DNA of 64,000 bases from Chachezhania sediminis (lineage in GTDB: Bacteria > Pseudomonadota > Alphaproteobacteria > Rhodobacterales > Rhodobacteraceae), in assembly GCF_009765275.1 (NCBI RefSeq), contig NZ_VOPH01000011.1, forward strand, positions 1-64,000, given 5' to 3'. This document shows positions 13,327-43,001 of the stretch, one piece after another. Both the position numbers and the translations under genes were made by a program. Numbering within the stretch: the first letter of the stretch is position 1; each line of letters begins with the position of its first letter. The notes under the pieces are model-generated. The model worked only from the letters and a program-made list of their open reading frames with translations, had not been told where the DNA came from and did no database searches.

Positions 13327-13467
13327 GTGAGATGTCACCTTTGCAAGTTCTCATCGGACAAGGAGCCGCCGGGCACCGGCTGCCTGTCCCATCGAGACGA
13401 CGAAGATCCGCATCCATTCCATGCTGCCATCCCGACCGGCAGCGTCCCGATGCGAAAACCACGTCCA

Positions 13468-29798: not shown

Positions 29799-30811
29799 GC
29801 CGTCTCTCCCGCGACCGCACCGTCGAGGACGAAATCATCGGCCCGCACGCAGCGCACGCGACGGTCGGCCGCGATATCGCGAAGCTCCTGCGGCGCGGTG
29901 CAGGCGTCGGCGGCATGGGCACAGCGCGGCGCGAACCGGCAGCCGGTCGGCATGGCACCTGGCGATGGCACCCGCCCGGGAATATGCGCGAACCGCCCTT
30001 TTTCCATGTTGAAATGCGGCAGGGACCGGAGCAGCCCGGACGTATAGGGATGGCGCGGCGACAGGAGCGCGTCGTCAACGGGCGCATCTTCCACGATTTC
30101 CCCGGCATACATCGTGATCATGCGCTGGCAGGTTTCGGCCACGACGCCAAGGTCATGGGTGATGAACAGAAGCGCGGTGCCGGTATCTTCGGAAAGCCGC
30201 GTCAGCAGGTCCATGATCTGGGCCTGGATCGTGACATCCAGCGCCGTCGTAGGTTCATCGGCGATGATCAGATCGGGCCGGTTGATCAGAGCCATGGCAA
30301 TCATCACCCGCTGGCGCATGCCGCCGGAAAGTTGATGCGGATATTCGTCATAGCGCCGCTTGGGCGCCGGAATTCCAACGTCGGCCAGCGCGGCGATCAC
30401 GCGGTCGCGCTCATCGGCCTTTGACAGGTTTTCATGCAGCCGCAACGCCTCGGCGATCTGTTCGCCGACGGTGAAAACCGGGTCGAGCGCGCTCATCGGC
30501 TCCTGGAAGATCATCGCGATCTTCTTGCCCCGCATGCGCCGGATCTCGCCCTGCGAAACGGTCGCCATGTCCTTGCCGTCCAGCAGGATCTGGCCACCGA
30601 TCTGTGCCGCGCCGGGCAGCAGCCGCATCAACGCCAGTCCGGTGACCGACTTACCGCAACCGGATTCCCCGACGAGCCCCACCCGTTCGCCGGGCGCGAT
30701 CCGGAAGTTCAGGTCATGCACGATATTCAGCGCCGGCTGACCCCGTCGCCCCCGGAAGCCGATTGACAGATCGCGCACGTCGAGAATGGGTCGGATCGCA
30801 GCGCCGGTCAT
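29795..30811 (-). CDS. ABC transporter ATP-binding protein, DppD/OppD type
   Basis: This is the second ATPase of the importer and the first canonical gene of the operon. Its 338 residues show Walker [10 protein letters not shown], signature [15 protein letters not shown], Walker [15 protein letters not shown] and the C-terminal Cys-rich extension with [15 protein letters not shown], which can bind an iron-sulphur cluster in some relatives. The ATG at 30811 overlaps, by ATGA, the end of a 28-codon frame that has a strong ribosome-binding site, so its translation may be coupled to that frame. Confidence 0.93.
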
Positions 30812-30894
30812 GGATGGCGTACCGCCGAAGGCCCTGCAGCCAAGGCTCCGCCATCCCGCTTGAACAGCGGCTCGATCCTGCCGGATCCATCCAT
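30808..30894 (-). CDS. Possible 28-residue upstream ORF coupled to the ABC operon
   Basis: The ATG at 30894 (MDGSGRIEPLFKRDGGALAA...) has GGGAGG 6 bases upstream, better than any site before the ATPase gene itself, and its stop overlaps the ATPase start by 4 bases. It may be a leader peptide or simply a way to couple translation. It is also the in-frame tail of the RepC-like reading, so the two readings are alternatives. Confidence 0.35.
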   Translation of the reverse strand: MDGSGRIEPLFKRDGGALAAGPSAVRHP

Positions 30895-31782
30895 TATTGT
30901 CCTCCCTGACAACTCACAGGTTGCTGGGAGGCACCGTTTCATACCGTCGATATTTTTGTCAACAATTAACAAAAATATTTGACGAAGCCAGATGGAGACT
31001 GAAGATAACCATATGGTTTTAAACTTTTTTATAAAGAATAACCGCAATTCTGACCCTCTATCGGCATTCAAAGATTGCCCCGGCGGAGCGCACGGGTAGC
31101 TGGCCCGATGCGGTGCAGCCACCCTGTGTGCGACTTCCGCGTCGCACCGGTCGGACATTTCCACTGCCACAGGCGCGTCAGCGAGCGCTTCGATCAACGC
31201 CTCCAGGGCGTCGGCGATTTCCTTCAGCCGCGCGTAGCGCCAGATGCGGGAGGCATGCCGAGATGGCAGGGTCGCTTCCGCGACCTCTTCGGCGGAAGCG
31301 TCCCCGGAGGTGCGGGCCCGCTCCAAGAGCTTCGGAATATGTAGCCGCAGGCGCTTGGCCTCTTCCTTCTCGAAGCAAACCTTCCGCGCGGCGGCCTCGA
31401 TCTCGCGGGTCCGGTCCACGAGCGGGGCGAGGTTGATGCCGAAAGCGTAGCGGATGAAGTTTTCGGACCTGACTCCATAGCGTCGACAACGTGCCGCGCT
31501 GGATGTCACGATGAAGCCCAGCTCCGCCAGGTGCGCCTCGGCCCGGGCAATCTGGCGTGGGTCCGCCTCAAGCTGCGATGCGGTTTCCGAAACCGAGGGC
31601 CACAGGGCGCAGATCCTGCCTGCTGCATAATCCTGATCCTGTGTCCGGGAGATCGCGAAGCGCAGGTACTTGAGCGTCGTATCGGTCAGGCCGAAATGCT
31701 TCGGCGCCTTCACCAGGAGGCCGTAGAGGTCCCATCGGTTCATCCCGTCCGGCAGACCGCGGTGCGTCAATACATGCGTCAT
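30808..31782 (-). CDS. RepC-like plasmid replication initiator with abnormal C-terminus
   Basis: The first roughly 220 residues (MTHVLTHRGLPDGMNRWDLY, KYLRFAISRTQDQDYAAGRI, FIRYAFGINLAPLVDRTREI) match the N-terminal domain of RepC, the replication initiator of alphaproteobacterial repABC and repC plasmids. After about residue 225 the frame runs through an AT-rich, promoter-like stretch (FFIKKFKTIWLSS...) and ends at 30808 on the transporter start, so the native C-terminus has been lost or replaced. No repA or repB is adjacent. It is probably a remnant of an integrated plasmid and may be inactive. The start at 31782 has GGGAAG upstream; 31812 is also open. Confidence 0.65.
   Translation of the reverse strand: MTHVLTHRGLPDGMNRWDLYGLLVKAPKHFGLTDTTLKYLRFAISRTQDQDYAAGRICALWPSVSETASQLEADPRQIARAEAHLAELGFIVTSSAARCRRYGVRSENFIRYAFGINLAPLVDRTREIEAAARKVCFEKEEAKRLRLHIPKLLERARTSGDASAEEVAEATLPSRHASRIWRYARLKEIADALEALIEALADAPVAVEMSDRCDAEVAHRVAAPHRASYPCAPPGQSLNADRGSELRLFFIKKFKTIWLSSVSIWLRQIFLLIVDKNIDGMKRCLPATCELSGRTIMDGSGRIEPLFKRDGGALAAGPSAVRHP
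30950..30978. promoter_or_regulatory. Perfect 10-bp inverted repeat, candidate operator of the ABC/carboxylase operon
   Basis: ATATTTTTGT (30950-30959) and ACAAAAATAT (30969-30978) flank a 9-base spacer. The minus strand reads TTGTTGACAA inside it, similar to the TNGTNNACNA-type sites of GntR regulators. It lies about 140 bases upstream of the first ATPase gene in an AT-rich stretch, where a promoter would be expected. The TTGACA within it could be a -35 box, but no well-spaced -10 follows. Confidence 0.5.
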
Positions 31783-32082
31783 ACGAACTTCCCATCGGGA
31801 AGGTCGCCCCACAGGATTTTCGTTGTGACAGGGCGGCTCGACGCGCTACACTCGGGAAAGCAGAATTTCGTGTCTGCTTTTGAATTTGCCTCGGTTTCGG
31901 TTGCCGCCGGACCGAGGTTTTTCTCTGCCAATTTCCCAGCTGAATCAGAGCCAGCCCGATCCGACTGTGCGGGTTTTGTACGGGACACTCTCGGTCCAGC
32001 ACTGAGAACCGCCGAAAAATCCTGCAAGAAGCTGCATGATGTGCTCGCACGGAACACACAAGCATCTGATATCAAATTGAAA

Positions 32083-32101
32083 AGTGGTGACCCCGACAGG
32101 A
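32083..32101. repeat. Left attachment-site repeat (attL) of the tRNA-Arg element
   Basis: AGTGGTGACCCCGACAGGA matches 18 of 19 bases of the tRNA-Arg 3' end at 42923-42941 (T for C at position 6), in the same orientation. The 13-base core GACCCCGACAGGA is exact. It defines an element of about 10.84 kb with the integrase at the tRNA end, as expected for tyrosine-recombinase islands. Confidence 0.8.
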
Positions 32102-32204
32102 CACGAAGAGTGTCCATGAAATCAGTAAGGTAATCCGTCCAACCCGGCCAGAAGGCCACATTGAAAACGTTGGCGAAAATCCGGGTTTGTCCAACCCGAA
32201 ATCG

Positions 32205-32244
32205 GCAAAAGAAAACGCCGCTGCGGCTGGTCCCCGCAACGGCG
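32205..32244 (-). terminator. Rho-independent terminator-like hairpin at the element's left end
   Basis: CGCCGCTGCGG (32216-32226) pairs with CCGCAACGGCG (32234-32244) with one mismatch and a 7-base loop. On the minus strand it is followed by TTTTCTTTT. No minus-strand gene reads into it from inside the element, so it may end an antisense transcript or insulate the element. Confidence 0.5.
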
Positions 32245-32321
32245 CTGTCAATGCATGTGAAGCCCCTCAGCTTCGCGGACATGATACCCCGAGGCGGGGC
32301 ACCTCCGCAATCAGCAAGTAC

Positions 32322-32696
32322 ATGAAACCCGAGCACAAGCGCCTGTCGCGGATGCTTGGCTACTGCCTGGTGCGCGGCTGCGATTATGAGAATTGGGCGG
32401 GCTTCGCCATCGTGGCGCAAGCGCGCCTGTCGGTGCAGGAGCGCGTGGCGCTCGCCTTCGCCTGCCTGAAGGCCCTTCCCGGCGATCTGATCGAAGATAC
32501 TGCCGGGGCCGTTCTCGGCGCTCGGGGCTATCCACTGCCGTCCACACTCGGCGGCATGTTCGACGCCCGCTGGTGGGCGAGCGCTGCGACACGGCCGGAA
32601 CTGAAAGCATACGCAGTCGCGGCCTTCGAAGCGATGAGCCGCGAGGACCGCCGCGCCTTTCTCGATTTTCTCACCGACTTGGAGCAGGCGGCATGA
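32322..32696 (+). CDS. Hypothetical protein of the integrated element
   Basis: Function not recognised. The product has 124 residues, starting MKPEHKRLSRMLGYCLVRGC, mostly helical, with no signal or membrane span. The reading is open further upstream but the conserved-looking part begins here; no good ribosome-binding site is visible. The stop overlaps the start of the next gene by 4 bases, so the two are a pair. It is the first gene of the element after attL. Confidence 0.65.
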   Translation: MKPEHKRLSRMLGYCLVRGCDYENWAGFAIVAQARLSVQERVALAFACLKALPGDLIEDTAGAVLGARGYPLPSTLGGMFDARWWASAATRPELKAYAVAAFEAMSREDRRAFLDFLTDLEQAA

Positions 32697-32926
32697 CCGA
32701 GACAGAGCTGGACATGATCCTGACGTTCCGCTGGCCGCGTGTGGTGCGCCGGGTGATGGGCGCGGGCGACGATCCGAAGCTGATGGGCTTTGTGCGGTCC
32801 ATATCCCGCAACGGGCGGCGCAAGACCTGGCATCCGAGCCCGAAGCAGGAGGCGTGGATGCACGCCATCCTGTCCGACTTCGACGCTGAGCACGAGCCGG
32901 ATTTGGAGGTGATCGAGAGGGAATAA
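32693..32926 (+). CDS. Hypothetical protein of the integrated element
   Basis: Function not recognised. The 77-residue, basic protein starts MTETELDMILTFRWPRVVRR, with a central RSISRNGRRKTWHPSPKQEA that could contact nucleic acid, and an acidic C-terminus. It overlaps the preceding gene by 4 bases (ATGA). Small genes of this kind at the head of prophages and satellites are often early regulators, but nothing in the sequence proves that. Confidence 0.65.
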   Translation: MTETELDMILTFRWPRVVRRVMGAGDDPKLMGFVRSISRNGRRKTWHPSPKQEAWMHAILSDFDAEHEPDLEVIERE

Positions 32927-33302
32927 CTCCGCATTGGCCGGCCCCTGATCAGGGCCAAGGCCAAGAACAACACGCGCTGCGAGTGGGCTTGACGACTTGT
33001 ACGGGCGCAGCGTGACACGGGCGGTATCGTAGAAACTATCAGCCGCCAGGCCAGCCATGCAGCTTCGTGCTGTCACCCCAAGGCCGAAGATAGCACTGCC
33101 ACCTGCGGGCGGTGAACAGAGGGGGTGCGCGCTTTCGATGCTGGATAGCGGAAGCGTGGCCTAAGCGGCGGCCCGGCTCCGGTGAGCAGGCAAGATCGCG
33201 GCGGTCAGGGGCGGCTGCAAAGTCGCCTGCTGACCGTCACAACAACCCTCACCAATGAGCAGGTGGGGATAGAGCAACGATAGAGAAGAGAGAGGAAGGC
33301 AG
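32927..33302. other. Gene-free stretch within the element
   Basis: No convincing gene. A minus-strand reading at 32528-33076 looks like a shadow of the two genes before it. The stretch contains a large hairpin at 33202-33236 and ends with GAGAGAGGAAGGCAG, the ribosome-binding site of the 53-residue gene. Confidence 0.5.
33202..33236. repeat. Long interrupted inverted repeat upstream of the small genes
   Basis: CGGTCAG (33202-33208) and CTGACCG (33230-33236) form an outer stem, with GGCG/CGCC inside it. No T-tract follows on either strand. It could be an operator or a structured 5' leader for the genes at 33303 onward. Confidence 0.4.
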
Positions 33303-33464
33303 ATGAAGACGACAGACTGGCGACACGTCTCCGAAGTCCTGGAAGACCTGGTCAGGCGACTTCGACGGCTCTGCCCCGACCATCACGACCCGCACCGCTT
33401 TCACGAGGAAAAGAGCGAGATCGCTTTCGAACTGACCAAGCTTGGAAGGAGCATTTCAGAATGA
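33303..33464 (+). CDS. Small hypothetical protein (53 residues)
   Basis: Not recognised. The product reads MKTTDWRHVSEVLEDLVRRL, then LCPDHHDPHRFHEEKSEIAF and ends ISE. It is charged and helical with several histidines. A strong purine-rich ribosome-binding site (GGAAGG) lies about 5 bases upstream and the stop overlaps the next start by ATGA, both of which support a real gene. Confidence 0.6.
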   Translation: MKTTDWRHVSEVLEDLVRRLRRLCPDHHDPHRFHEEKSEIAFELTKLGRSISE

Positions 33465-33730
33465 CCGAACACGACAGAACCCCCGAGCAGTCCACAGAGA
33501 TCGTCGCCAATTGCGTCTCTGACCTTATCCTGCGCCTGCACAAGGAGGCAGGGATACCTTTGCAGATGGTGATCGCTGCGGCGCATGCCGAGATCGTCAC
33601 CGAAATGGCCCTGATGGTCGGCGGGGAGATGGCCTATGAGCTCTGCCTTGGCGCCGGTGAGCGCGTCCGACCGCTGTTGAGCGTGAGCGATATTGCCCTC
33701 GCCGCATCCACCCCTCACGGCAGCGCCTGA
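33461..33730 (+). CDS. Small hypothetical protein (89 residues)
   Basis: Not recognised. It starts MTEHDRTPEQSTEIVANCVS and continues with a helical middle (LRLHKEAGIPLQMVIAAAHA) of mild hydrophobicity. No membrane span is certain. It is translationally coupled to the 53-residue gene by a 4-base overlap and lies just before the terminase genes, so it belongs to the early or packaging part of the element. Confidence 0.6.
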   Translation: MTEHDRTPEQSTEIVANCVSDLILRLHKEAGIPLQMVIAAAHAEIVTEMALMVGGEMAYELCLGAGERVRPLLSVSDIALAASTPHGSA

Positions 33731-33824
33731 TGGCGCGCGGGTCCTTCCCCGCCCCCCACCGCATGGGGGTAATTCGCGCCCCGACACTTCGGCCTGCGCA
33801 AGAATTTATAAGGGGCTGAAAATC

Positions 33825-34325
33825 ATGAGGATTTTGGAGGAGCTGCCCCTTGGCGACAGCGGCGCCAGCGTCATGCGCATTGGCGGCGCTGATCTTTGCG
33901 ACCTCCTGGGTATCAGCCCGGCGCTGCTGTCGGACCTGAAGCGCCGCCAGATCGCCATTCACATCGGGCACGACGCCTATGACCTCGGCGCCACCGTGAA
34001 AGCCTATGTCGCCCATCTGCGCGAAACCGCCAGTGGCCGCGGGGGCGAGCAGCATGTGAACACCCTGACGGCCGAGCGCGCCCGGCTGGCAAAGGAACAG
34101 GCCGACGCCCAGGCGCTGAAGAACGCCCGCCTGCGCGGTGACCTGGTCGAGGCGGCCGAGGTCGAACGCACCTGGTCGGACACGCTGCGCCACGTGCGGT
34201 CCCGGATGCTGGCGGTTCCGTCCCGGCTTCGGGCCGACTTCCCCCAGGCGGATGCCGCCATCTTCACAGCCATGGACCGCGCCCAACGCGATGCCCTGAC
34301 GGAGCTTGGCAATGACGACGCTTGA
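33825..34325 (+). CDS. Terminase small subunit (Nu1-like)
   Basis: The small terminase recognises DNA for packaging into the capsid. From MRILEELPLGDSGASVMRIG the product has 166 residues. An N-terminal winged helix (GADLCDLLGISPALLSDLKR) resembles the Nu1/MerR-like DNA-binding domain. The middle ERARLAKEQADAQALKNARL, then RGDLVEAAEVE, is the conserved Nu1-type helical signature. AAGGGG upstream supports the start at 33825. It overlaps the large-subunit gene by 14 bases. Confidence 0.85.
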   Translation: MRILEELPLGDSGASVMRIGGADLCDLLGISPALLSDLKRRQIAIHIGHDAYDLGATVKAYVAHLRETASGRGGEQHVNTLTAERARLAKEQADAQALKNARLRGDLVEAAEVERTWSDTLRHVRSRMLAVPSRLRADFPQADAAIFTAMDRAQRDALTELGNDDA

Positions 34326-36087
34326 ACTGATCCGCCGCAACGCCCTGGGCGCGCTCACCCCGCCGCCCCGCCTGCGTCTGTCCGAATGGATCGAAGGCCA
34401 CATCGCCCTGCCGGATGGCGTCAGCGCCCAGCCCGGGCCGGTGCGGCTCTGGCCTTTCCAGCGCGAGATTGCCGACGCCATCGGCGATCCGCTGATCGAG
34501 CGCGTGACGCTGGTCAAGCCGGTGCGCGTCGGGTTCACCACCCTCCTGACCTCGGCCGTTGCATCCTTCGTCGCCAATGAGCCGTCGCCGATCCTCTGCC
34601 TTCTGCCGGCCGAGGCGGATTGCCGGGATTACATGGTCAGCGACGTGGAACCGATCTTCGCCGCGTCCCGCAGCGTGGCGGACGCCCTGGGCGACGATCA
34701 GGACGAAGGCGAGCGCAACACGCTGCTGTCCCGTCGCTTCCCCGGCGGGTCGCTGAAGGTGGTCGCCGCGAAGGCCCCACGCAACCTGCGCCGGCACAAC
34801 GTGCGCGTCCTGTTCATCGATGAGGCGGACGGCATGGACGCCACGGCCGAAGGCTCGCCGATCCTGCTGGCCGAGCGCCGCACGCTGTCCTTCCCGGATC
34901 GCAAGATCGTCCTGGGCAGCACGCCGGTGCACGATGAGACCAGCCATGTCCTGCGCGCCTATGCCCAGTCGGATGCCCGCATCTTCGAAGTGCCCTGCCC
35001 CGAATGCGGCAGCTTCGCCGAAATCGTCTGGGACCAGATCGTCTGGGACGACACGCCCGCATCCGCCCGCTGGAAGTGCCCGCACTGCCGGGCCGAGGTC
35101 GAGGAGCGACACAAGCCCGCGATGGTCGCACAAGGCCAGTGGCGTGCCACGCGGCCCGAGGTGCAGGGCCATGCCGGGTTCCGGCTGAATGCCTTGGTCA
35201 GCCTGCACACGAACGCGTCCTGGGCGAAGCTGGCGGCAGAGTTCATCGGCGCCAAGGACGATCCGACCACGCTTCAGACCTTCGTCAACACGATCCTGGG
35301 CCAAGGCTGGCGCGGGGAAGGCGAAGAACTGTCCGAAGAGGATCTGGCCGGCCGTGGCGAAGACTGGGGCCTGTCCGCCGTGCCCGAAGAGGTTCTGGCG
35401 CTGACGGTGGGCTGCGACGTCCAGCACGACCGCCTGGAGCTGACCTTTGTCGGTTGGGCCGAAAGCGGCATTGCCTATGTCCTGGGGCACCGCGTGATCT
35501 GGGGCGACTGGGACGACGACGATACCTGGGCGGCGCTGGACGTGCAGCTGCGCGAGACCTTCCCCCACGCCCTGGGCGGGCGCATCGGGATCGACGCCTG
35601 CGCGGTGGATGCCGGCGACGGCACCACCATGAACCGCGTGACCGACTTCGCGCGGGCGCGCACCCGCCGCAAAGTGCTGGCCATCAAGGGCGCCGCTGGC
35701 AGCCGGCCGCTGATCGAGCGGGCCGGGTCGAAGACGAAAACCGGTGCCCGGCTGTGGATCGTGGGCGTGGACACGGCGAAGGAACAGATCTTCGCGCGCC
35801 TGTCCCGCGGCAGCACGATTCGCCTGTCAGGCGACTTACCCGCCGTCTGGCATGAACAGGTGGCATCGGAACGTGCCGTGCTGCGGTATCGGCGCGGTCA
35901 GCCGGTGCGGAGCTTCGAGAGGATACCTGGGAAGAGGGCGGAGGCGCTGGATTGCTTGGTCTATGCGCTCGCGGCACGGCAGATGCTGCGGCCGGATTGG
36001 GAGGAGTTACGAAAGCACTGCGCGAGACAGGAAACCGCAAGGAAGAACCCAGTGCCCGTGCTTAAATCTGACTGGATGAAGCGTTGA
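34312..36087 (+). CDS. Terminase large subunit (GpA family)
   Basis: This is the ATP-driven packaging motor and nuclease. The 591 residues start at the ATG at 34312 (MTTLELIRRNALGAL); a TTG two codons earlier is possible. The ATPase shows VTLVKPVRVGFTT (Walker A-like, about residue 75) and VRVLFIDEADGMD (Walker B, about 168). A zinc ribbon CPECGSF...CPHCRAEV lies near 230-260, and the C-terminal nuclease region includes LTVGCDVQHDRLELTFVGW. This architecture is that of the lambda gpA group, which cut at cos sites. It indicates the element packages its own DNA. Confidence 0.93.
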   Translation: MTTLELIRRNALGALTPPPRLRLSEWIEGHIALPDGVSAQPGPVRLWPFQREIADAIGDPLIERVTLVKPVRVGFTTLLTSAVASFVANEPSPILCLLPAEADCRDYMVSDVEPIFAASRSVADALGDDQDEGERNTLLSRRFPGGSLKVVAAKAPRNLRRHNVRVLFIDEADGMDATAEGSPILLAERRTLSFPDRKIVLGSTPVHDETSHVLRAYAQSDARIFEVPCPECGSFAEIVWDQIVWDDTPASARWKCPHCRAEVEERHKPAMVAQGQWRATRPEVQGHAGFRLNALVSLHTNASWAKLAAEFIGAKDDPTTLQTFVNTILGQGWRGEGEELSEEDLAGRGEDWGLSAVPEEVLALTVGCDVQHDRLELTFVGWAESGIAYVLGHRVIWGDWDDDDTWAALDVQLRETFPHALGGRIGIDACAVDAGDGTTMNRVTDFARARTRRKVLAIKGAAGSRPLIERAGSKTKTGARLWIVGVDTAKEQIFARLSRGSTIRLSGDLPAVWHEQVASERAVLRYRRGQPVRSFERIPGKRAEALDCLVYALAARQMLRPDWEELRKHCARQETARKNPVPVLKSDWMKR

Positions 36088-36121
36088 ACGCCACCGGCTT
36101 TGTGGCCGGCGCAAAAAGCAC

Positions 36122-36598
36122 TCATCGTAGCGGAGGATCTAAGTAGCGTTCTTCAGGTGGAATTGCCGCGAGCTTGTCGAAAATCTCGTGAAGTTGTGCC
36201 GTTATCTGTCGTTGACGTAGGAACTCGCGTTCCATTGCAGCCTTTTGTGTTTGAAGGATTCCAATTGCCTCATCCCATTTCCGAAGTGACATACTATTGC
36301 CTCGTATAAGGATTTCCCGGTCGGCCTCCAGCTTCCTCATCCCTTCCTGGTACTCGTTGACAACTTTTAACAAACCTTGTCGCGGGGCCTCCCAAAGCTC
36401 AGGATTCGCCGGAACGAGGTCCATTTGCCGGTGCGTTAGGCGCATGACTTCGTTCGTAAGAAAGTCGGAAAGCTGCCCAACTAAACCTATGGTTTCAGCG
36501 CTAAGTGCCAGCGCCGCATTTCGCTTTGCGCTGATTTGGCTTGATCTAGTCGACCCCAACCCGATCAACGAGAACAATGCAGATACCGGGTCCGTCAT
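36122..36598 (-). CDS. Hypothetical helical protein, opposite strand within the element
   Basis: Not recognised. The 158 residues start MTDPVSALFSLIGLGSTRSS and are rich in Glu, Gln, Arg and Leu, with probable coiled-coil segments (NEYQEGMRKLEADREIL, then AIGILQTQKAAMEREFLRQR). The gene is transcribed against the terminase and portal genes and has visibly lower GC than they do. It may be a cargo gene (a moron) expressed from the integrated state, for example in host defence or interference, but the sequence gives no direct evidence. Confidence 0.65.
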   Translation of the reverse strand: MTDPVSALFSLIGLGSTRSSQISAKRNAALALSAETIGLVGQLSDFLTNEVMRLTHRQMDLVPANPELWEAPRQGLLKVVNEYQEGMRKLEADREILIRGNSMSLRKWDEAIGILQTQKAAMEREFLRQRQITAQLHEIFDKLAAIPPEERYLDPPLR

Positions 36599-36664
36599 GT
36601 TGTTCGCCTCCGCGTTGCGCAATCAATCCTAGTCACCCTGCGCCCAACCGAACAACAGCGGTGA

Positions 36665-36952
36665 TCAGTCGGACCCCGATTCCAGATACTTCGGATGCGG
36701 CACGTAATCTATTGATCGTCCGTTCATGTGAAGCGTGACCGTATCTGGCAGATCCTTGCCGCAGGCGCTCTTTGATGCCGCAGTTTCACATGTAAATTGG
36801 TTCGACGCGCCCAGCCACGCTTCCAGCGCCGCCAGGATTTCCGCGTTCATGCTGCGTCGGTTCTCGGCCGCCAGGTCCTTAACCTGGTCCCGCATGCCGT
36901 CCGGCAGCCGGAGCATGAACTTGTCACTTTCCCGGTTTGCGCCGCCAGTCAT
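36665..36952 (-). CDS. Arc-family (ribbon-helix-helix) DNA-binding protein
   Basis: This is a probable repressor. Start at 36952 gives 95 residues. The N-terminal SDKFMLRLPDGMRDQVKDLA followed by AENRRSMNAEILAALEAWL is the ribbon-helix-helix pattern of Arc-like phage regulators. The C-terminal tail with two cysteines and LHMNGRSIDYVPHP is unusual. It is divergent from a second Arc-like gene at 37053, with a perfect inverted repeat between them, which suggests a two-repressor switch. Confidence 0.85.
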   Translation of the reverse strand: MTGGANRESDKFMLRLPDGMRDQVKDLAAENRRSMNAEILAALEAWLGASNQFTCETAASKSACGKDLPDTVTLHMNGRSIDYVPHPKYLESGSD

Positions 36953-37004
36953 CGTGCCTCCAAGCTTTGTGGCACCGTGACACCAGAAAACACTTGACCG
37001 CAAT

Positions 37005-37041
37005 AAAGTCACCGTGACACATGTGATGTCACGGTGACTTT
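37005..37041. promoter_or_regulatory. Operator: perfect 15-bp inverted repeat between divergent Arc-like genes
   Basis: AAAGTCACCGTGACA (37005-37019) and TGTCACGGTGACTTT (37027-37041) flank 7 bases. The half-site CACCGTGACA occurs again at 36973-36982. Each arm contains the smaller palindrome TCACCGTGA. The site ends 11 bases before the plus-strand ATG and lies about 50 bases upstream of the minus-strand ATG, so it can control both. Confidence 0.8.
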
Positions 37042-37052
37042 GGAAACTTGAT

Positions 37053-37208
37053 ATGACCAACCGCAAACCGCTTCAGCTGCGGCTTCCGCCCGAGCTCAAG
37101 GCATGGATCGAAGAGCAGGCAGAGAAGAACGGCAGCAGCCAGAATTCCGAGATCATCCGCGCCGTGCGCGACCGGATGGACCGGACCCAGGAGGCGCATA
37201 GCGCCTGA
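37053..37208 (+). CDS. Small Arc-family DNA-binding protein (51 residues)
   Basis: This is a second ribbon-helix-helix protein: MTNRKPLQLRLPPELKAWIE, then SSQNSEIIRAVRDRMDR. The beta-strand motif (QLRLPPEL) and the helix with NSEIIRAV are typical of Arc/MetJ-type dimers. At 51 residues it is close to the minimal Arc size. It is divergent from the 95-residue Arc-like gene and shares its operator region. Confidence 0.8.
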   Translation: MTNRKPLQLRLPPELKAWIEEQAEKNGSSQNSEIIRAVRDRMDRTQEAHSA

Positions 37209-37282
37209 AATGAAGCGGGCCAGGCGGTGCTCCAACACCATCCCGGCCCTGACATGAAACCGATCTAATGAGGAGATCGCCC

Positions 37283-37678
37283 ATGGCTGACAGCCAATAT
37301 ATGACCCGTCGCGTCCTGGTGAAAGGCCTTCCCATGGCCGCAGGGGGCGCAGTGTTTCCGTTGGCCGCAGAGACTGGCGCAGAAAAGGTGCCGCAATGTG
37401 CCGATCCGCATCCCGAGTGGCTGGCGCGCTGGCGAAAGGCCAGGCACGAAATGGACCAGCTCCTACGGGTCGATGATATGACCGACGCGGCGGAAGAAGA
37501 TGCACTTTGGGCCCGGCGGATAGGGATCGAGGATCTTTTGACCGGCACCCCTGCCGGGACCATCGCAGGGGCCTGGGCGCAAATTCAGTTTCTGATCGAG
37601 GATGGCGAGCGCCATTACCTGGAAGACTACCAGATGAAGGCCCTTCAGTCTGTCGCTGCCACGCTTGGCATGGCTTAG
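37283..37678 (+). CDS. Hypothetical protein with twin-arginine-like signal
   Basis: Not recognised by function. From the ATG at 37283 (GGAG 7 bases upstream) it has 131 residues. The N-terminus MADSQYMTRRVLVKGLPMAA followed by GGAVFPLAA looks like a twin-arginine signal, an uncommon feature for a phage-type gene. The mature part is acidic and contains GTPAGTIAGAWAQIQFLIED. Small Tat-signal proteins of this layout are found in alphaproteobacterial prophages as far as I recall; their role is unknown to me. Confidence 0.65.
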   Translation: MADSQYMTRRVLVKGLPMAAGGAVFPLAAETGAEKVPQCADPHPEWLARWRKARHEMDQLLRVDDMTDAAEEDALWARRIGIEDLLTGTPAGTIAGAWAQIQFLIEDGERHYLEDYQMKALQSVAATLGMA

Positions 37679-37730
37679 GCGAGCTTCGAACGCCAAGGCG
37701 GAGTCCGCGCTGGTTCACCATTCTGAAACA

Positions 37731-37796
37731 GGTTGCCAGAAACCATTTTACGAGCTATCTTACCGACAAGTCAAAAGTGGTTGACCGAAACCACTT
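37731..37796. promoter_or_regulatory. Two related palindromes upstream of the MerR-like gene
   Basis: GGTTGCCAGAAACCA (37731-37745) and GGTTGACCGAAACCA (37779-37793) share 13 of 15 bases. The second extends to AAGTGGTT-N6-AACCACTT (37775-37796). They lie within 80 bases of the start at 37809 and are probable operator copies for the element's control of its late genes. Confidence 0.6.
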
Positions 37797-37808
37797 CGGA
37801 GTTGAGAG

Positions 37809-38330
37809 ATGAGCGACGACAAGATGCGTTTCCGGCCGATGTTGATTGCGGAGGTTGCTCGCGTGGCGGGTGACCCCCGCGAAACCATCCGGACACGGCT
37901 GAAGCAGGGCGTTTTCAGCTTCGAACGCGGCAAGGGGTGGAAGCGCTTCACCGACTTCGAAACGATTACGATCAGCATCCACGCCCGCCTGAAACGCGCC
38001 ACGAACGACGACAGCTTGGCGGAAATCGGAATGCTTCTGGCCGCCAAGGTGCTCATGGATGAGTGGATCGAGGACGAGAACGGCGTTCCGTATTTCGCCA
38101 TGAAAACATTCGAAAAAGATCGCTTCATCATGTTTCGGCGCGGGGAGACCGGTGATTGGGTCGCGAACCTTGTCGAGAGCAACGAAGAGCTGAATGCCGA
38201 GATCAATCAGCGCCTGGATGAAAGCTTCACGACCGCGCCGGTCTTCACTTGTATCAATCTCCGCACGCTGCTGCGCCAGACCTTGCTTGCAATCCTGAAA
38301 GTCCAAGTTGAAGCGGAGGAAGGCAAATGA
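37809..38330 (+). CDS. MerR-like HTH protein of the element
   Basis: This is a putative DNA-binding regulator. The 173 residues begin MSDDKMRFRPMLIAEVARVA, then GDPRETIRTRLKQGVFSFER and GKGWKRFTDFETI, which fits a MerR-type helix-turn-helix with wing. The C-terminal part is helical and acidic. The stop overlaps the portal start by 4 bases, so it heads or joins the head-gene operon. Two palindromes upstream may be its own sites. Confidence 0.6.
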   Translation: MSDDKMRFRPMLIAEVARVAGDPRETIRTRLKQGVFSFERGKGWKRFTDFETITISIHARLKRATNDDSLAEIGMLLAAKVLMDEWIEDENGVPYFAMKTFEKDRFIMFRRGETGDWVANLVESNEELNAEINQRLDESFTTAPVFTCINLRTLLRQTLLAILKVQVEAEEGK

Positions 38331-39646
38331 ACGCCATCACCCGCACCCTTGGCCGAGTGTTTCGCCGCTCCGGCATCGAAGCCGGTGGCGGCGGTCGCCG
38401 TTGGGATGGTGCTTCCGTCCTGACCAATCCGCAGCAACAGACGCTTGCCGCCCGCGGTGCCGCCAAGGCCCGCGCCTCGGCCGCGTATGTGAACACACCC
38501 TATGGGCAGAGGATCGTGGAAGCCTGGACGGCCGCCCTGGTCGGCAAAGGCTGGCAGGCCCGTCCCCGTCATCCCGACGAAACGGTGCGCCGGCAGCTGA
38601 GCGATGACTTTGAGCACATGGTGGGCCAACACCTGACCGCCATCGCCCGTTCGCTGATCCGGGACGGCGAAGCCTTCGTCCGCATCCTGGTCAACGAAGA
38701 CGGCACCACGCGCCTGCGGGTCATCCCCGCCGATCAGGTGGACCCGTCGCTGTCCCGCGATCTGGGCGGCGGCGCCCGGATCGTGTCCGGGGTGGAGTTC
38801 GATGCGTCCGAAACAGTGGCGGCCTATCACATCCTGCGCGAAGCCCCCGGGGCGCCGTTCGCCACGTTCGGTGAAACGGTCCGGGTTCCGGCAACGGATA
38901 TGCTGCATATCTTCGACACGCTGTTTCCCGGCCAGGTGCGCGGCCTGTCATGGCTGACCCCGGTACTGCTGAAGATGCGCGACCGTGACGAGGCATCCGA
39001 CGCCATGCTGATGCGCGAGAAGACCGCGGCCCTTCTGACCGGCTTCATCCGGGATCTGGATGGCGGCCCCGGTGGTCCCGCCGGTTTCGACGGTGAATTG
39101 TCGGGCGCCGCGGTGAATGTCTCGCTGGAACCCGGGGCGATGCGCGTGCTGCCGTCCAATACGGAAGTGACCTTCAGCCAGCCCGGCCAGGGCCTCGCCC
39201 AGGCCGTTGAATTCCTGCGCGCCCAGGACCGCGAGATTGCCGCCGGCGTCGGGCTTACCTTCGAGGCGCTGACCGGCGACCTGGGCGAAGCGAACTATTC
39301 CTCGGCCCGTGTCGGGCTTCTGGAATTCCGGCGCCGGGCGGAGATGCTGCAACGCAACCTGATCGAAGCGCAGTTCCTGCGCCCGCTGTGGCGGCGCTGG
39401 ATCGACATTCAGGCCCTGTCCGGCGCCATCACCGGCGGCAGCGCCGATTTCAAGGCCGTCCGCTTCGTGGCGCCCGGCTGGCAGTGGGTCGACCCGCAGA
39501 ACGAAGTGCAGGCCGATGTCTCGGCTATCGAAGCCGGCCTGAAGAGCCGGGAAGAGGTCGTCGCGGGGCGCGGGCGGGACATTGACGAACTGGATGCCGA
39601 GATCGCCCGCGATGCGCGCCGGCCGGATCAGGGGACCGCTACATGA
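38327..39646 (+). CDS. Phage portal protein (lambda family)
   Basis: The portal forms the dodecameric DNA entry ring of the capsid and docks the terminase. Its 439 residues show the lambda-portal pattern: AARGAAKARASAAYVNTPYG, then GEAFVRILVNEDGTTRLRVI, and the C-terminal WQWVDPQNEVQADVSAIEAG with EEVVAGRGRDIDELDAEIAR. It overlaps both neighbours by 4 bases, so it is cotranscribed with the MerR-like gene and the protease-capsid fusion. Confidence 0.92.
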   Translation: MNAITRTLGRVFRRSGIEAGGGGRRWDGASVLTNPQQQTLAARGAAKARASAAYVNTPYGQRIVEAWTAALVGKGWQARPRHPDETVRRQLSDDFEHMVGQHLTAIARSLIRDGEAFVRILVNEDGTTRLRVIPADQVDPSLSRDLGGGARIVSGVEFDASETVAAYHILREAPGAPFATFGETVRVPATDMLHIFDTLFPGQVRGLSWLTPVLLKMRDRDEASDAMLMREKTAALLTGFIRDLDGGPGGPAGFDGELSGAAVNVSLEPGAMRVLPSNTEVTFSQPGQGLAQAVEFLRAQDREIAAGVGLTFEALTGDLGEANYSSARVGLLEFRRRAEMLQRNLIEAQFLRPLWRRWIDIQALSGAITGGSADFKAVRFVAPGWQWVDPQNEVQADVSAIEAGLKSREEVVAGRGRDIDELDAEIARDARRPDQGTAT

Positions 39647-41403
39647 CCATTCATCTTCGCGCGATCACCCCCAGGCCGACCACGGTCGATATCAAGGGCC
39701 GCACTGTCGAGGCCATCGTTTCCACCGGCGCGGACGCGGTCCGCCCGGGATATATCGAGCGGCTTGACCTGCGCGGTGCCGACCTGTCCCGCCTGGTCGG
39801 CGCGCCCGTTCTGGACGGGCACCGCTCCGGTTCGACCCGCGATCAGCTGGGCGTCATCGAGGCCGCGGAACTGCGGTCCGAGGGGCTGTGGGTCCGGATG
39901 CGGTTCCGCAGCAACGACGCCGCGCAGGCGGTGCTGACCGATATCGGTGACGGCACCCTGCGCGGGCTGTCCATCGGCTACACCGTGGCCGAGTGGCAGG
40001 ACGGGCGGGACGGCAAGAACCGTGTCCGCACGGCAACCCGATGGACGCCCCTGGAAGTGTCCATCGTCCCCGTCCCGGCCGATGCCGGGGCTCACTTCCG
40101 CAACGGAGAATTCGGCATGGAACCCGACGAGCAGACGGCCGAACGGCCGAACGAGACCGAGCGCCAGACGCGCGCGCAGGTGAACGCAGAGATCCGCAGC
40201 ATTGCCCAGACCGCCGGCCTGAACCGCGCCTGGGCGGATGGCCAGATCGACGCCGAAGTGACCGCAGACGCGGCCCGCCAGTCCGCCTTCGCTGAAATGC
40301 AGCGGCGCAGCGCAGACACCACCACTCGCACCACCCGGGCCGTGATCACCCACGACAACACGGCACCCGAGGTCGTGGCGCAGCGTGCGGGCGAGGCGCT
40401 GTTCGCCAGGTCGCACCCGGATCACCAGATCAGCCCGGAAGCCCGCCAGTGGGCCGGCCTGACCTTCCGCGAGATCGCCCGGGAAGTGCTTCAGATGCGC
40501 GGTGCTGCCACCATGGCCATGACCGGGGACGCGCTGATCACCCGGGCGCTTCACAGCACCTCGGACTTCCCGATGATCCTGGGCGACGCTGTCGGGCGGG
40601 AGCTGCGCCGATCCTATGGCGCCGCCCCCTCGGCCGTGCGTCAGCTGGCCCGCCAGACGACGGCGCGGGACTTCCGGGCCAAGCGGGCGATCATGCTGGG
40701 CGAAGGCCCGGAACTGGAACGGGTCGGGGAAGGCGGCGAGTTCAGCTATGGCACCATCGACGAATCGGAAGAGAGCTACAGCGCCGAGACCTTCGGGAAG
40801 ATCTTCGCGATTTCCCGGCAGGCGATGGTCAACGACGACCTGGGCGCCTTCACCCGGGTGCCGACGCTCCTGGGCGCATCCTCGGCCGCATTCGAGGCGA
40901 GTCAGCTGGTCGCCAAGATCACGGCGAACCCGGTGATGAGCGACGGTGTCGCCGTCTTCCACGAAGACCATGACAACCTGTCGGGCGCCTACGGTGCCCC
41001 GAGCATGACCACGCTGTCGGCCGCACGGCTCGCGATGCGCCGTCAGACCGGGATTTCGGATCGGCTGATCGACGTGAAGCCCCGCTTCCTGGTCGTCCCG
41101 CCGGAATTGGAAACCACGGCCGAACAGGTGCTGGCTGAGATTGCCGCAACGAAGACCGACGACGTGAACCCGTTCTCCAAACTCAGCCTGATCGTGGAAC
41201 CCCGGTTCACCGACGCCCAGCAATGGTATCTGACCGCCGATCCCGCCCTGATGGATGGCCTGGAATACGCCTACCTGGAAGGCGCGCCAGGCCCGCAGAT
41301 CGAGACCAAGGCCGGCTTCGAGGTTGACGGGCTTCAGATCAAGGTGCGGCTCGACTTCGGCTGCGGCTGGATCGAGCACCGCGGCTGGTATCGGAACGGC
41401 TGA
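39643..41403 (+). CDS. Prohead protease / major capsid protein fusion
   Basis: One 586-residue chain carries two head functions. Residues 1 to about 155 form an HK97-type (S78) prohead protease, with candidate catalytic His60 (PVLDGHRSGST) and Ser110 (TLRGLSIGYTV). A linker to about 230 is rich in charged residues and could act as scaffold. From about 240 to the end lies the major capsid protein (ARQWAGLTFREIAREVLQMR, STSDFPMILGDAVG, ending in VRLDFGCGWIEHRGWYRNG, like Mu-type capsid proteins). The protease would presumably cut itself off during maturation. It overlaps portal by 4 bases and the head-joining gene by 1. Confidence 0.9.
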   Translation: MTIHLRAITPRPTTVDIKGRTVEAIVSTGADAVRPGYIERLDLRGADLSRLVGAPVLDGHRSGSTRDQLGVIEAAELRSEGLWVRMRFRSNDAAQAVLTDIGDGTLRGLSIGYTVAEWQDGRDGKNRVRTATRWTPLEVSIVPVPADAGAHFRNGEFGMEPDEQTAERPNETERQTRAQVNAEIRSIAQTAGLNRAWADGQIDAEVTADAARQSAFAEMQRRSADTTTRTTRAVITHDNTAPEVVAQRAGEALFARSHPDHQISPEARQWAGLTFREIAREVLQMRGAATMAMTGDALITRALHSTSDFPMILGDAVGRELRRSYGAAPSAVRQLARQTTARDFRAKRAIMLGEGPELERVGEGGEFSYGTIDESEESYSAETFGKIFAISRQAMVNDDLGAFTRVPTLLGASSAAFEASQLVAKITANPVMSDGVAVFHEDHDNLSGAYGAPSMTTLSAARLAMRRQTGISDRLIDVKPRFLVVPPELETTAEQVLAEIAATKTDDVNPFSKLSLIVEPRFTDAQQWYLTADPALMDGLEYAYLEGAPGPQIETKAGFEVDGLQIKVRLDFGCGWIEHRGWYRNG

Positions 41404-41612
41404 TGGCGATCGAGGCCACCGAGCTTGAAGAAATGCGCGACGCCCTGATCAGGGCGCGCGCAAAGGGCGTGCGCGAGTTGCAGATGAACGGCGAGCGCGT
41501 GCGCTATGGATCCGATGCGGAAATGGCTGCGGCGATTGCTGCGCTCGACCGCCGCCTCGCAAGCCCCACCCGTGTGCGCACCGTCGCTTTCAAGACTTCG
41601 AAGGGGGTCTGA
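41403..41612 (+). CDS. Phage head-tail joining protein (gpW-like)
   Basis: This small connector would close the packaged head and present a surface for tails. The product has 69 residues: MAIEATELEEMRDALIRARA, then GVRELQMNGERVRYGSDAEM and AAAIAALDRR, the two-helix and beta-hairpin layout of gpW-type joining proteins. It starts on the last base of the capsid stop (TGATG). It is the last structural gene; no tail gene follows. Confidence 0.75.
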   Translation: MAIEATELEEMRDALIRARAKGVRELQMNGERVRYGSDAEMAAAIAALDRRLASPTRVRTVAFKTSKGV

Positions 41613-41621
41613 CCTCAAGCC

Positions 41622-41816
41622 ATGTCGAACCGTCCCGCCAAGATCACGCAAACCGAGATCAGCCGCACCATAAAGGGTGCGGCCGAAGCCGGTATGCAGA
41701 TCGGCGAGGTTAGAGTTAACCATGCCACCGGCGAAGTGACGATCCTCCCCGTTTCGTCAAGCATCTCGACGAACGGAATCGCGGATATCGACCGCATGCT
41801 GGATATCAGGAAATGA
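41622..41816 (+). CDS. Small hypothetical protein coupled to the integrase
   Basis: Function not recognised. Its 64 residues run MSNRPAKITQTEISRTIKGA, AEAGMQIGEVRVNHATGEVT and on to LDIRK. The stop overlaps the integrase start by 4 bases. Position and size suit an excisionase or recombination directionality factor, but no clear helix-turn-helix is seen. Confidence 0.6.
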   Translation: MSNRPAKITQTEISRTIKGAAEAGMQIGEVRVNHATGEVTILPVSSSISTNGIADIDRMLDIRK

Positions 41817-42913
41817 AGCGCAGGAACCCTTTCCCCGGGCTGGGAAATCAGCCCGTCATTGATCGACACGGCAAAAAGCGCTGGCGGCTCCGGCTGACGA
41901 TCAAGGGCCGCAAGATCGACACCTATATCCACGGCGCCTATGGTTCTGCGCAGTTCCGGGCCGAATACGAAGCTGCGACCACCGCGGCCCCGGAACCCCA
42001 GACCGCGGGCGACTGGGGCACCGTGGAATACGTGCTTTCCAAGTACCGTGCCGACAAGAAGTACAAGGCGCTGGCAGCGTCCACGCGGTACGCAAAGGGC
42101 AAGCGTCTCGACTGGATCGGCTCGCTGATCGGTCGCGCCCGCATGGCCGAGCTTCAGCCCTACCACATCGAAAACCTGATGGATCGCAAGGGCGGCCCTG
42201 ACGCGGCAAATCGGCTGCGCAAGGAGGTGTCCGAACTATTCACCTTCGCCCGCAAGAAACTGGGCATGAACCACCCGGACCCGACCGAAGGCATCGATGA
42301 GCGCAAGACCAACAAGAGCGGTTTCCACACCTGGACCGCGGCCCAGGTCGAGCAATACCGCGAGGCCCATGCCAGCGGGACCATGGCGCGCCTGGCGCTT
42401 GAGCTGATGCTTGCGACAGGCGCTGCCCGACAGGATGCCTGCGCCATCGGCCGCCAGAACATCAAGGGCGATGTGATCTACTATCGCCGCGGCAAGACCG
42501 GGCAAGATACGGAACTGCCGTTGAAGTACATGGCCGCCCTAGTCGCCGAAATCGTCCAGCTGCCCTACGGCACCACGATCTTTGTCACGCATGGCGGCAA
42601 GCCCTACACCGTAGAAAGCTTCGGAAACTGGTTCGCAGATCAGTGCAAGGCTGCGGGGCTTCCCGACGAATGCCGGGCACATGGCCTCCGCAAACTGGGG
42701 GCCACGACACTCGCAGAAGCCGGCGCGAACGAATTTCAGATCATGTCGTTCCTCGCACACAAGAGCACCCGCGAGGCGCTCCGCTACGTCCGGGCTGCGC
42801 AGCGGAAGAAGCTCACGGCCGCCGGCATGGCCCTCGCACACAGTGAAAACGTGTCCAACCTTTCCGAGTGGTTGGACAAAACAGACACGCAAGCACCTGA
42901 AAATAGGGAGTAA
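41813..42913 (+). CDS. int: Tyrosine-type site-specific integrase
   Basis: This recombinase integrates and excises the element at tRNA-Arg. Of its 366 residues, the N-terminal part includes an arm-binding-like segment (GKKRWRLRLTIKGRKIDTYI) and a core-binding domain to about residue 165. Catalytic residues are all present: Arg206 (TGAARQDAC), Lys228 (YRRGKTG), His290 and Arg293 (HGLRKLGATT), His316 (LAHKST) and Tyr325 (ALRYVRAAQ). The gene ends 11 bases before the tRNA 3' end, the standard arrangement. Confidence 0.93.
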   Translation: MKRRNPFPGLGNQPVIDRHGKKRWRLRLTIKGRKIDTYIHGAYGSAQFRAEYEAATTAAPEPQTAGDWGTVEYVLSKYRADKKYKALAASTRYAKGKRLDWIGSLIGRARMAELQPYHIENLMDRKGGPDAANRLRKEVSELFTFARKKLGMNHPDPTEGIDERKTNKSGFHTWTAAQVEQYREAHASGTMARLALELMLATGAARQDACAIGRQNIKGDVIYYRRGKTGQDTELPLKYMAALVAEIVQLPYGTTIFVTHGGKPYTVESFGNWFADQCKAAGLPDECRAHGLRKLGATTLAEAGANEFQIMSFLAHKSTREALRYVRAAQRKKLTAAGMALAHSENVSNLSEWLDKTDTQAPENRE

Positions 42914-42922
42914 AAATGAAAC

Positions 42923-42941
42923 AGTGGCGACCCCGACAGGA
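42923..42941. repeat. Right attachment-site repeat (attR) within tRNA-Arg
   Basis: AGTGGCGACCCCGACAGGA covers the CCA, discriminator, acceptor 3' strand and start of the T-stem of tRNA-Arg. It matches 32083-32101 at 18 of 19 positions. The tRNA remains intact because the element carries or restored the 3' end. Confidence 0.8.
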
Positions 42942-43001
42942 TTCGAACCTGTAACCTGCCCCTTAGGAGGGGGCTGCTCTATCCAGTTGAGCCACGGGGC
43001 C
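42925..43001 (-). tRNA. tRNA-Arg (anticodon CCT)
   Basis: A full cloverleaf can be drawn: acceptor GGCCCCG/CGGGGTC with one G-T pair, D-arm GCTC...GAGC, anticodon stem GCCCC/GGGGC with loop CTCCTAA, T-arm ACAGG-TTCGAAT-CCTGT, discriminator G and an encoded CCA (77 bases). The anticodon CCT reads AGG codons. Its 3' end faces the integrase and is duplicated at 32083. Confidence 0.97.

Follow-up and report, generated by a model that had tools for sequence, protein, structure and literature searches.

A probable tail-less, capsid-forming phage satellite in a tRNA-Arg gene of Chachezhania sediminis and its alphaproteobacterial relatives

The first 64,000 nucleotides of contig NZ_VOPH01000011.1 of Chachezhania sediminis (hereafter the window) carry, between positions 32,083 and 42,941, an element that codes for the head and DNA packaging proteins of a phage and for an integrase. 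With a probability of about 0.86 it is an intact, site-specifically integrating, tail-less satellite that belongs to an ancient capsid-forming lineage of Alphaproteobacteria. Tails borrowed from other phages would almost certainly be needed for its spread.

The element is bounded by two att-like repeats (32083-32101 and 42923-42941) that are 10,840 bp apart and identical at 18 of 19 nt. Their 13-nt core GACCCCGACAGGA has exactly two copies within the window, and in relatives without the element the right-side homology ends exactly at 42925. A first-pass annotation of the stretch, made from its letters and reading frames, had described matching repeats around about 10.8 kb; both are present, the right copy lying in a tRNA-Arg gene. 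The element proteins were annotated with Pfam and PHROGs. The features are, from left to right:

32083..32101, no strand: attL, the distal att repeat AGTGGTGACCCCGACAGGA, an 18/19 match to attR
32322..32696, + strand: g1, a small, conserved, helical protein encoded at the left end; at least 12 elements have a homologue in this position
32693..32926, + strand: g2, conserved 77-aa protein with homologues in about 12 satellite loci
33303..33464, + strand: g3, conserved 53-aa protein with homologues in about 10 satellite loci
33461..33730, + strand: g4, conserved 89-aa protein upstream of terS, with homologues in about 10 satellite loci
33736..33790, + strand: candidate cos site CGGGTCCTTCC...GGGGGTAATTCGCGCCCCGA, a conserved block upstream of terS
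33825..34325, + strand: terminase small subunit (TerS), Nu1-like (phrog_57, E 4e-27)
34306..36087, + strand: terminase large subunit (TerL) of the GpA type (PF05876 and PF20454)
36122..36622, - strand: cargo, 166-aa protein in the variable terL-portal gap, without Pfam or PHROG match
36665..37066, - strand: Arc-like ribbon-helix-helix regulator (PF03869, E 9e-14), likely start at 36952 by coding score
37053..37208, + strand: second Arc-like regulator, divergent (PF03869, E 2.5e-7)
37268..37678, + strand: cargo, 136-aa protein of no clear family in Pfam and PHROG searches
37809..38330, + strand: g11, MerR-like helix-turn-helix regulator as judged from alignment, with homologues immediately before the portal gene in sister elements
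38327..39646, + strand: portal of the lambda family (PF05136, Phage_portal_2, E 2e-73; PDB portal 8gtd, E 3e-30)
39643..41403, + strand: prohead protease-major capsid fusion (PF04586, PF25209, phrog_4523)
41403..41612, + strand: gpW-like head-tail adaptor (Ad1; phrog_2545, E 9e-14), which aligns with phage gpW
41622..41816, + strand: small protein before int, a putative excisionase by its position, with int-adjacent homologues in sister elements
41813..42913, + strand: tyrosine integrase (PF00589, E 1e-15)
42923..42941, no strand: attR AGTGGCGACCCCGACAGGA, overlapping the 3' end of tRNA-Arg
42925..43001, - strand: tRNA-Arg(CCT), the integration target (ARAGORN and Rfam)

The family searches thus verified the two terminase subunits, portal, protease-capsid fusion, head-joining protein, regulators and integrase that had been read from the sequence. 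TerL matches the GpA ATPase and nuclease (E 7e-82 and 8e-84), and the fusion joins an S78 protease to Phage_capsid_4 (phrog_4523, E 9e-184), the protease residues His60 and Ser110 being invariant. The core genes are all open, and g11, portal, capsid and gpW genes are tightly coupled by overlaps of 1-4 nt (4 nt between g11 and portal), as the first-pass annotation had remarked. Codon-based gene calling recovered the main genes at their expected starts and missed g3 and g7. The AlphaFold model of g1 consists of seven helices and found no fold match in the PDB.

No protein of the element matches a tail, tape-measure, baseplate, lysis or replication family in Pfam and PHROGs, in line with the initial description, and HNH, AlpA and primase families were likewise without a match. 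The lack of tails is shared by the relatives. Tail and lysis proteins from the strain's own prophage and from Rhodobacter phage RcMamaDuck served as queries in iterated profile searches, which detected such markers in none of the 80 related genome loci and did match the tailed control loci. Of the 80, 45 have at least 8 kb of sequence downstream of the capsid gene. Among 103 genes other than terL, portal and cap in ten elements, integrase, TerS and Ad1 each occur in 10/10 and the cement protein in 5/10; the 25 commonest of 55 PHROG families include none for tail or lysis. Pfam identified in the ten elements a single FII-type attachment protein, in L090, and two elements with DUF6441. In a second sample of 36 loci, 30 of the 31 with a capsid score above 530 bits are tail-less and all five below it are tailed phages. 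The position of gpW separates the two groups: it follows the capsid gene in satellites and lies between terL and portal in tailed loci.

Relatives were gathered by capsid-based scans of GTDB genomes and IMG/VR, which gave at least 480 capsid relatives in each. The tail-less gene order recurs at many tRNA genes of Rhodobacterales and, with variations, in Rhizobiales and Rhodospirillales. The search proposed beforehand, for tail-less copies of this gene set between tRNA repeats, succeeded in many Rhodobacterales genomes and beyond. Capsid scores of at least 530 bits are found in 47/395 genomes of the host's bacterial family (12%; profile search, hand count). The shared order is rep/g1-g2-(g3-g4)-cos-terS-terL-cargo-portal-cap-gpW-(cement)-xis-int-tRNA, in which the left end holds small genes or a replication gene, the cement gene (DUF2190) is present in some relatives and the tRNA gene is usual but not universal. 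The closest relatives (type A, about 52-73% capsid identity) come from Sinirhodobacter, Gemmobacter, Histidinibacterium, Celeribacter, Loktanella, Paracoccus, Rhodobacter, Roseovarius, Mameliella and others. From att to att, nine type-A elements including the window copy measure 9,725 to 11,656 bp; nine mapped elements lie at tRNA-Glu, His, Cys, Met and Arg genes, and eight sister elements have perfect repeats, of 15-48 bp. Some sister elements code for an O-like initiator, an AAA helicase or a toprim primase. Type B has an extra toprim primase and larger cargo, for example methyltransferases and an HNH gene, the latter present in L033 (16.9 kb), the sole type-B element with mapped ends. Type C variants occur in Stappia, Labrenzia, Aquabacter, Pararhodospirillum and others.

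Type-B capsids (L066, L069, L070, L067) are 96-97% identical (DNA 91-93%) between Zavarzinia and Ruegeria or Albimonas, and 87% identical between Ruegeria and Pararhizobium, which suggests recent transfer across orders.

The same wide host spread, together with the missing tail genes, would suit a domesticated particle resembling a gene transfer agent (GTA) or consisting of heads only, in which tail-less heads are released and their DNA is delivered through vesicles or through tails acquired outside the cell. Capsid-forming phage-inducible chromosomal islands (cf-PICIs) are indeed reported to take up diverse phage tails (PMC13345588). Such a particle is nevertheless improbable here: nearly every element keeps the gpW adaptor, suggesting tail docking, and integrase and att mark a selfish element rather than a GTA. 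A gene transfer agent as such was rejected on the presence of integrase and att and the absence of a tail cluster.

In a maximum-likelihood tree of 77 capsids (quick search), 60 capsids labelled as satellites by gene order form one side of a branch (SH-aLRT, an approximate likelihood-ratio test, 94) and 15 tailed-phage capsids fall outside; no shuffle of the labels out of 500 was as clustered as observed. The head genes are under purifying selection, the ratio of nonsynonymous to synonymous substitution (dN/dS) being about 0.05-0.3 for terL, portal and cap. Against L050, the nearest relative, the window element gives 0.15-0.20, a comparison in which synonymous sites approach saturation. The close pair L041/L025 has terL and capsid 98% identical and gpW just 70%, which fits turnover at the head-tail joint.

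These data bear on the possibility, raised as the alternative in the first-pass annotation, that the element is a decayed prophage, left over from a lambda-like phage whose tail, lysis and replication genes have been lost. Its head genes are about 34% identical to those of lambda-like Rhodobacter phages and its att repeat is imperfect, as a remnant might have it. Independent decay should however scatter such remnants over the tree, and the 60 satellites lie in a single clade; the same gene order and size are reached in dozens of genera, the head genes are open and selected, gpW takes its satellite-specific position, and integrase, att and cos-like site are intact. Two refuting outcomes had been named in advance: full tail and lysis modules behind the same head genes at the same site in close relatives, the sign of a deletion derivative, or disrupted head genes in most homologues. 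The head genes of close relatives are intact, under purifying selection and not followed by tail or lysis modules. Single clade, recurrence and selection thus contradict decay, which is very unlikely.

Several points weigh against the satellite interpretation. Excision, particles and helper-dependent transfer are predictions from the gene content. The att repeat of the window element has one mismatch, unlike those of the sister elements, and no empty site was found, element-free relatives sharing the tRNA-Arg and LacI side with left flanks unlike the window; both facts imply that the window copy may be old. For the tRNA-His element L041, too, no match across the junction was found among the congeners searched. 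The absence of tail genes rests on profile searches, with a PHROG summary that covers 25 of 55 families, and the remaining high-scoring locus of the second sample, L289, is a chimera, broken and containing a fragment of a tail gene. Assignment of the satellite labels by gene order means that the capsid tree tests clustering and does not prove a single origin.

A candidate packaging site lies upstream of terS. In an alignment of about 280 nt around the terS start of 18 type-A loci, GGGTCCTT is invariant in 18/18 and is followed by GGG and a GC-rich block, within an otherwise variable intergenic stretch. Position and conservation suggest that the block is cos. In this position it is present in every type-A element whose sequence includes terS, in many of type C and in several tailed phages and prophages; it was not found in type B, the group with a primase. 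The long form GGGTCCTTCC-N(10-22)-GGGGTAATTCGCRCCCCGA has three sites in the 5.6-Mb genome and none with a reversed-pattern control: at window position 33739, just upstream of a prophage terS (G000:C23:71957) and at G000:C18:1686. By itself the short pattern shows no enrichment in the genome (23 matches versus 29 in the control).

The prophage, at about 66-97 kb of contig C23 (L230, L231), is lambda-like, tailed and apparently complete, with genes for tube, tape measure (TMP), tail proteins, a GH108 lysin and an integrase. Its co-residence and the common cos-like block make it the leading candidate helper. The block subtype (with or without TAATTC) agrees between satellite and prophage in 4/4 genomes, too few to be decisive, namely the window genome and those of L040, L041 and L090, each with a motif-bearing GpA-type tailed prophage. 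The common block and this agreement would also suit an island packaged mainly by the helper: the prophage terminase would cut its DNA at the cos-like site and load it into heads of the helper, with which the island's own head genes would interfere. This is the least probable of the explanations considered, since portal, protease-capsid and both terminase subunits are all under purifying selection and the narrow size range of the elements points to a dedicated small head.

The third long-form site is on contig C18 (L229), whose 9,003 bp overlap by 123 bp at the ends and which is probably a circular 8.9-kb plasmid. It encodes two head proteins, a ClpP-like protease and a major capsid protein, together with a Rep_3 initiator, a phage-type primase and a BrnT/BrnA toxin-antitoxin pair, and is devoid of terminase, portal and tail genes. 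It is possibly a capsid-coding plasmid satellite. No close relatives of its capsid were found in viral_contigs.

If the element is a satellite, its cycle might run as follows. It resides in the tRNA-Arg gene with the integrase at the tRNA end, as seen in its anatomy. Upon induction by a lambda-like helper the Arc-like and MerR-like regulators would switch the element on and it would be excised. Its DNA would be copied by host or helper proteins, because the window copy is without primase or initiator. Protease-capsid and portal, whose genes are present, are predicted to build a small head of its own, and its own TerS and TerL to fill it with about 11 kb starting from the cos-like site. The gpW-type adaptor would then close the portal, and head closure (Hc1/FII), tail and lysis would be supplied by a lambda-like siphophage. 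Satellites keep Ad1/gpW and are usually without the head-closure protein (phrog_82), which in the prophage follows the cement gene, so that the boundary between own and borrowed parts is probably at that point.

A wider picture, given slightly less than even odds, is that of an ancient and largely alphaproteobacterial radiation, separate from the PICIs, whose smallest members shed their replication genes and whose exchangeable gpW docks the tails of different helpers. In this strain prophage, satellite and capsid plasmid would then form a network of three members with one packaging site. If true, this second architecture, with terminase, portal and capsid families of its own, would mean that building heads and borrowing tails evolved more than once, and such satellites would be common in Alphaproteobacteria, judging from the capsid scores of about 12% of the sampled host-family genomes. 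The near-identity of type-B capsids across orders suggests far-reaching gene carriage, and the co-resident prophage with its matching cos-like site offers a testable helper pair in one strain.

Several relatives have further traits. The terL-portal gap is a variable cargo slot, often occupied by large genes or by genes on the opposite strand, such as the methyltransferases and HNH at L033:8876-12550, and may hold defence cargo; PADLOC gave weak or single matches only in type-A and close elements, for example CapP. The near-identical satellites L041 and L025 (about 94-97% in DNA) diverge in gpW, in some of the cargo and at the integrase end, which shows modular exchange. In L077, L089, L092, L095, L132 and L137 another type-B-like integrase is found a few genes after the capsid module, suggesting tandem satellite arrays at one site. 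An extra FII-type attachment or DUF6441 neck/tail-related protein is encoded beside terS (L090:4328-4648, L090:3143-3757, L051:4397-5053) and perhaps fits other helpers. L032 lies in a tRNA-Glu gene of the 2.2-Mb Paracoccus versutus plasmid pBEN, typed as conjugative, and could additionally move by conjugation. Two small plasmids, L035 (Rhodovastum RHOAph, 10,690 bp) and L283 (Klebsiella aerogenes pYD-K10_2, 10,541 bp), code for a protease-capsid fusion and a large primase-like protein (DUF3987, DUF927), with no annotated portal, large terminase or tail; pYD-K10_2 has in addition integrase, AlpA and DUF1441 genes.

Just outside attL, at 30808-31812 (- strand), the window contains a gene for a RepC-like plasmid initiator whose N-terminal domain is intact and whose C-terminal half is odd. 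It is likely a remnant outside the satellite family; a role in the satellite was rejected, as no satellite relative carries the gene. The automated IMG/VR collection lists the region as an uncharacterised provirus of 13,119 bp (L023). A Rhodo-rpoB cis-regulatory RNA (Rfam RF03074) at 13359-13453 (- strand) is unrelated to the element.

Capsid-forming satellites have so far come mainly from Enterobacteria, Pasteurella and Gram-positive hosts, and PICIs feature an AlpA regulator and a primase-replicase. The lambda-like Rhodobacter siphophages of the RcMamaDuck group and the C23 prophage have a head module homologous to that of the element, the prophage also the cos-like block. They differ by full tail and lysis modules, by gpW between terL and portal and by capsids outside the satellite clade. 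The Streptomyces satellites MulchRoom and MiniFlayer, likened here by description, have head and packaging genes and no primase, and MulchRoom an integrase and no tail genes (PMC10690885), like the window element; unlike it, they have actinobacterial hosts, virulent helpers and direct terminal repeats.

The closest parallel in organisation is with the cf-PICIs, described in PMC10690885 as islands that carry their own capsid, protease, portal and connector genes together with TerS, TerL and HNH and rely on helper tails. EcCIEDL933 is likewise an island integrated beside its integrase, with its own TerS, TerL, portal, protease, capsid and adaptor, without tail or lysis genes and dependent on helper tails (PMC10690885, PMC11389934). 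Three cf-PICI capsid radiations are given in PMC11389934, and the host summary in PMC10803314 does not include Alphaproteobacteria. The window element differs by its GpA/Nu1 terminase, lambda portal, fused S78 protease-capsid and a gpW-type adaptor after the capsid gene, by having no HNH, AlpA or primase, and by its 10-11 kb against a cf-PICI mean of 14 kb (PMC10803314). It thus has the head and connector genes, both terminase subunits, the integrase with att and the lack of tail and lysis genes of a cf-PICI, but neither the HNH of the packaging module nor AlpA with primase-replicase; HNH occurs in the wider relative L033, and a primase or initiator in some relatives. Of the cf-PICI logic proposed at the outset, the independent alphaproteobacterial version is upheld by the single capsid clade and the distinct gene families, and membership among cf-PICIs proper is not. 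The element appears to work like a cf-PICI and is filed apart as a variant, a separation drawn from published descriptions and from a capsid tree that compares satellites with tailed phages.

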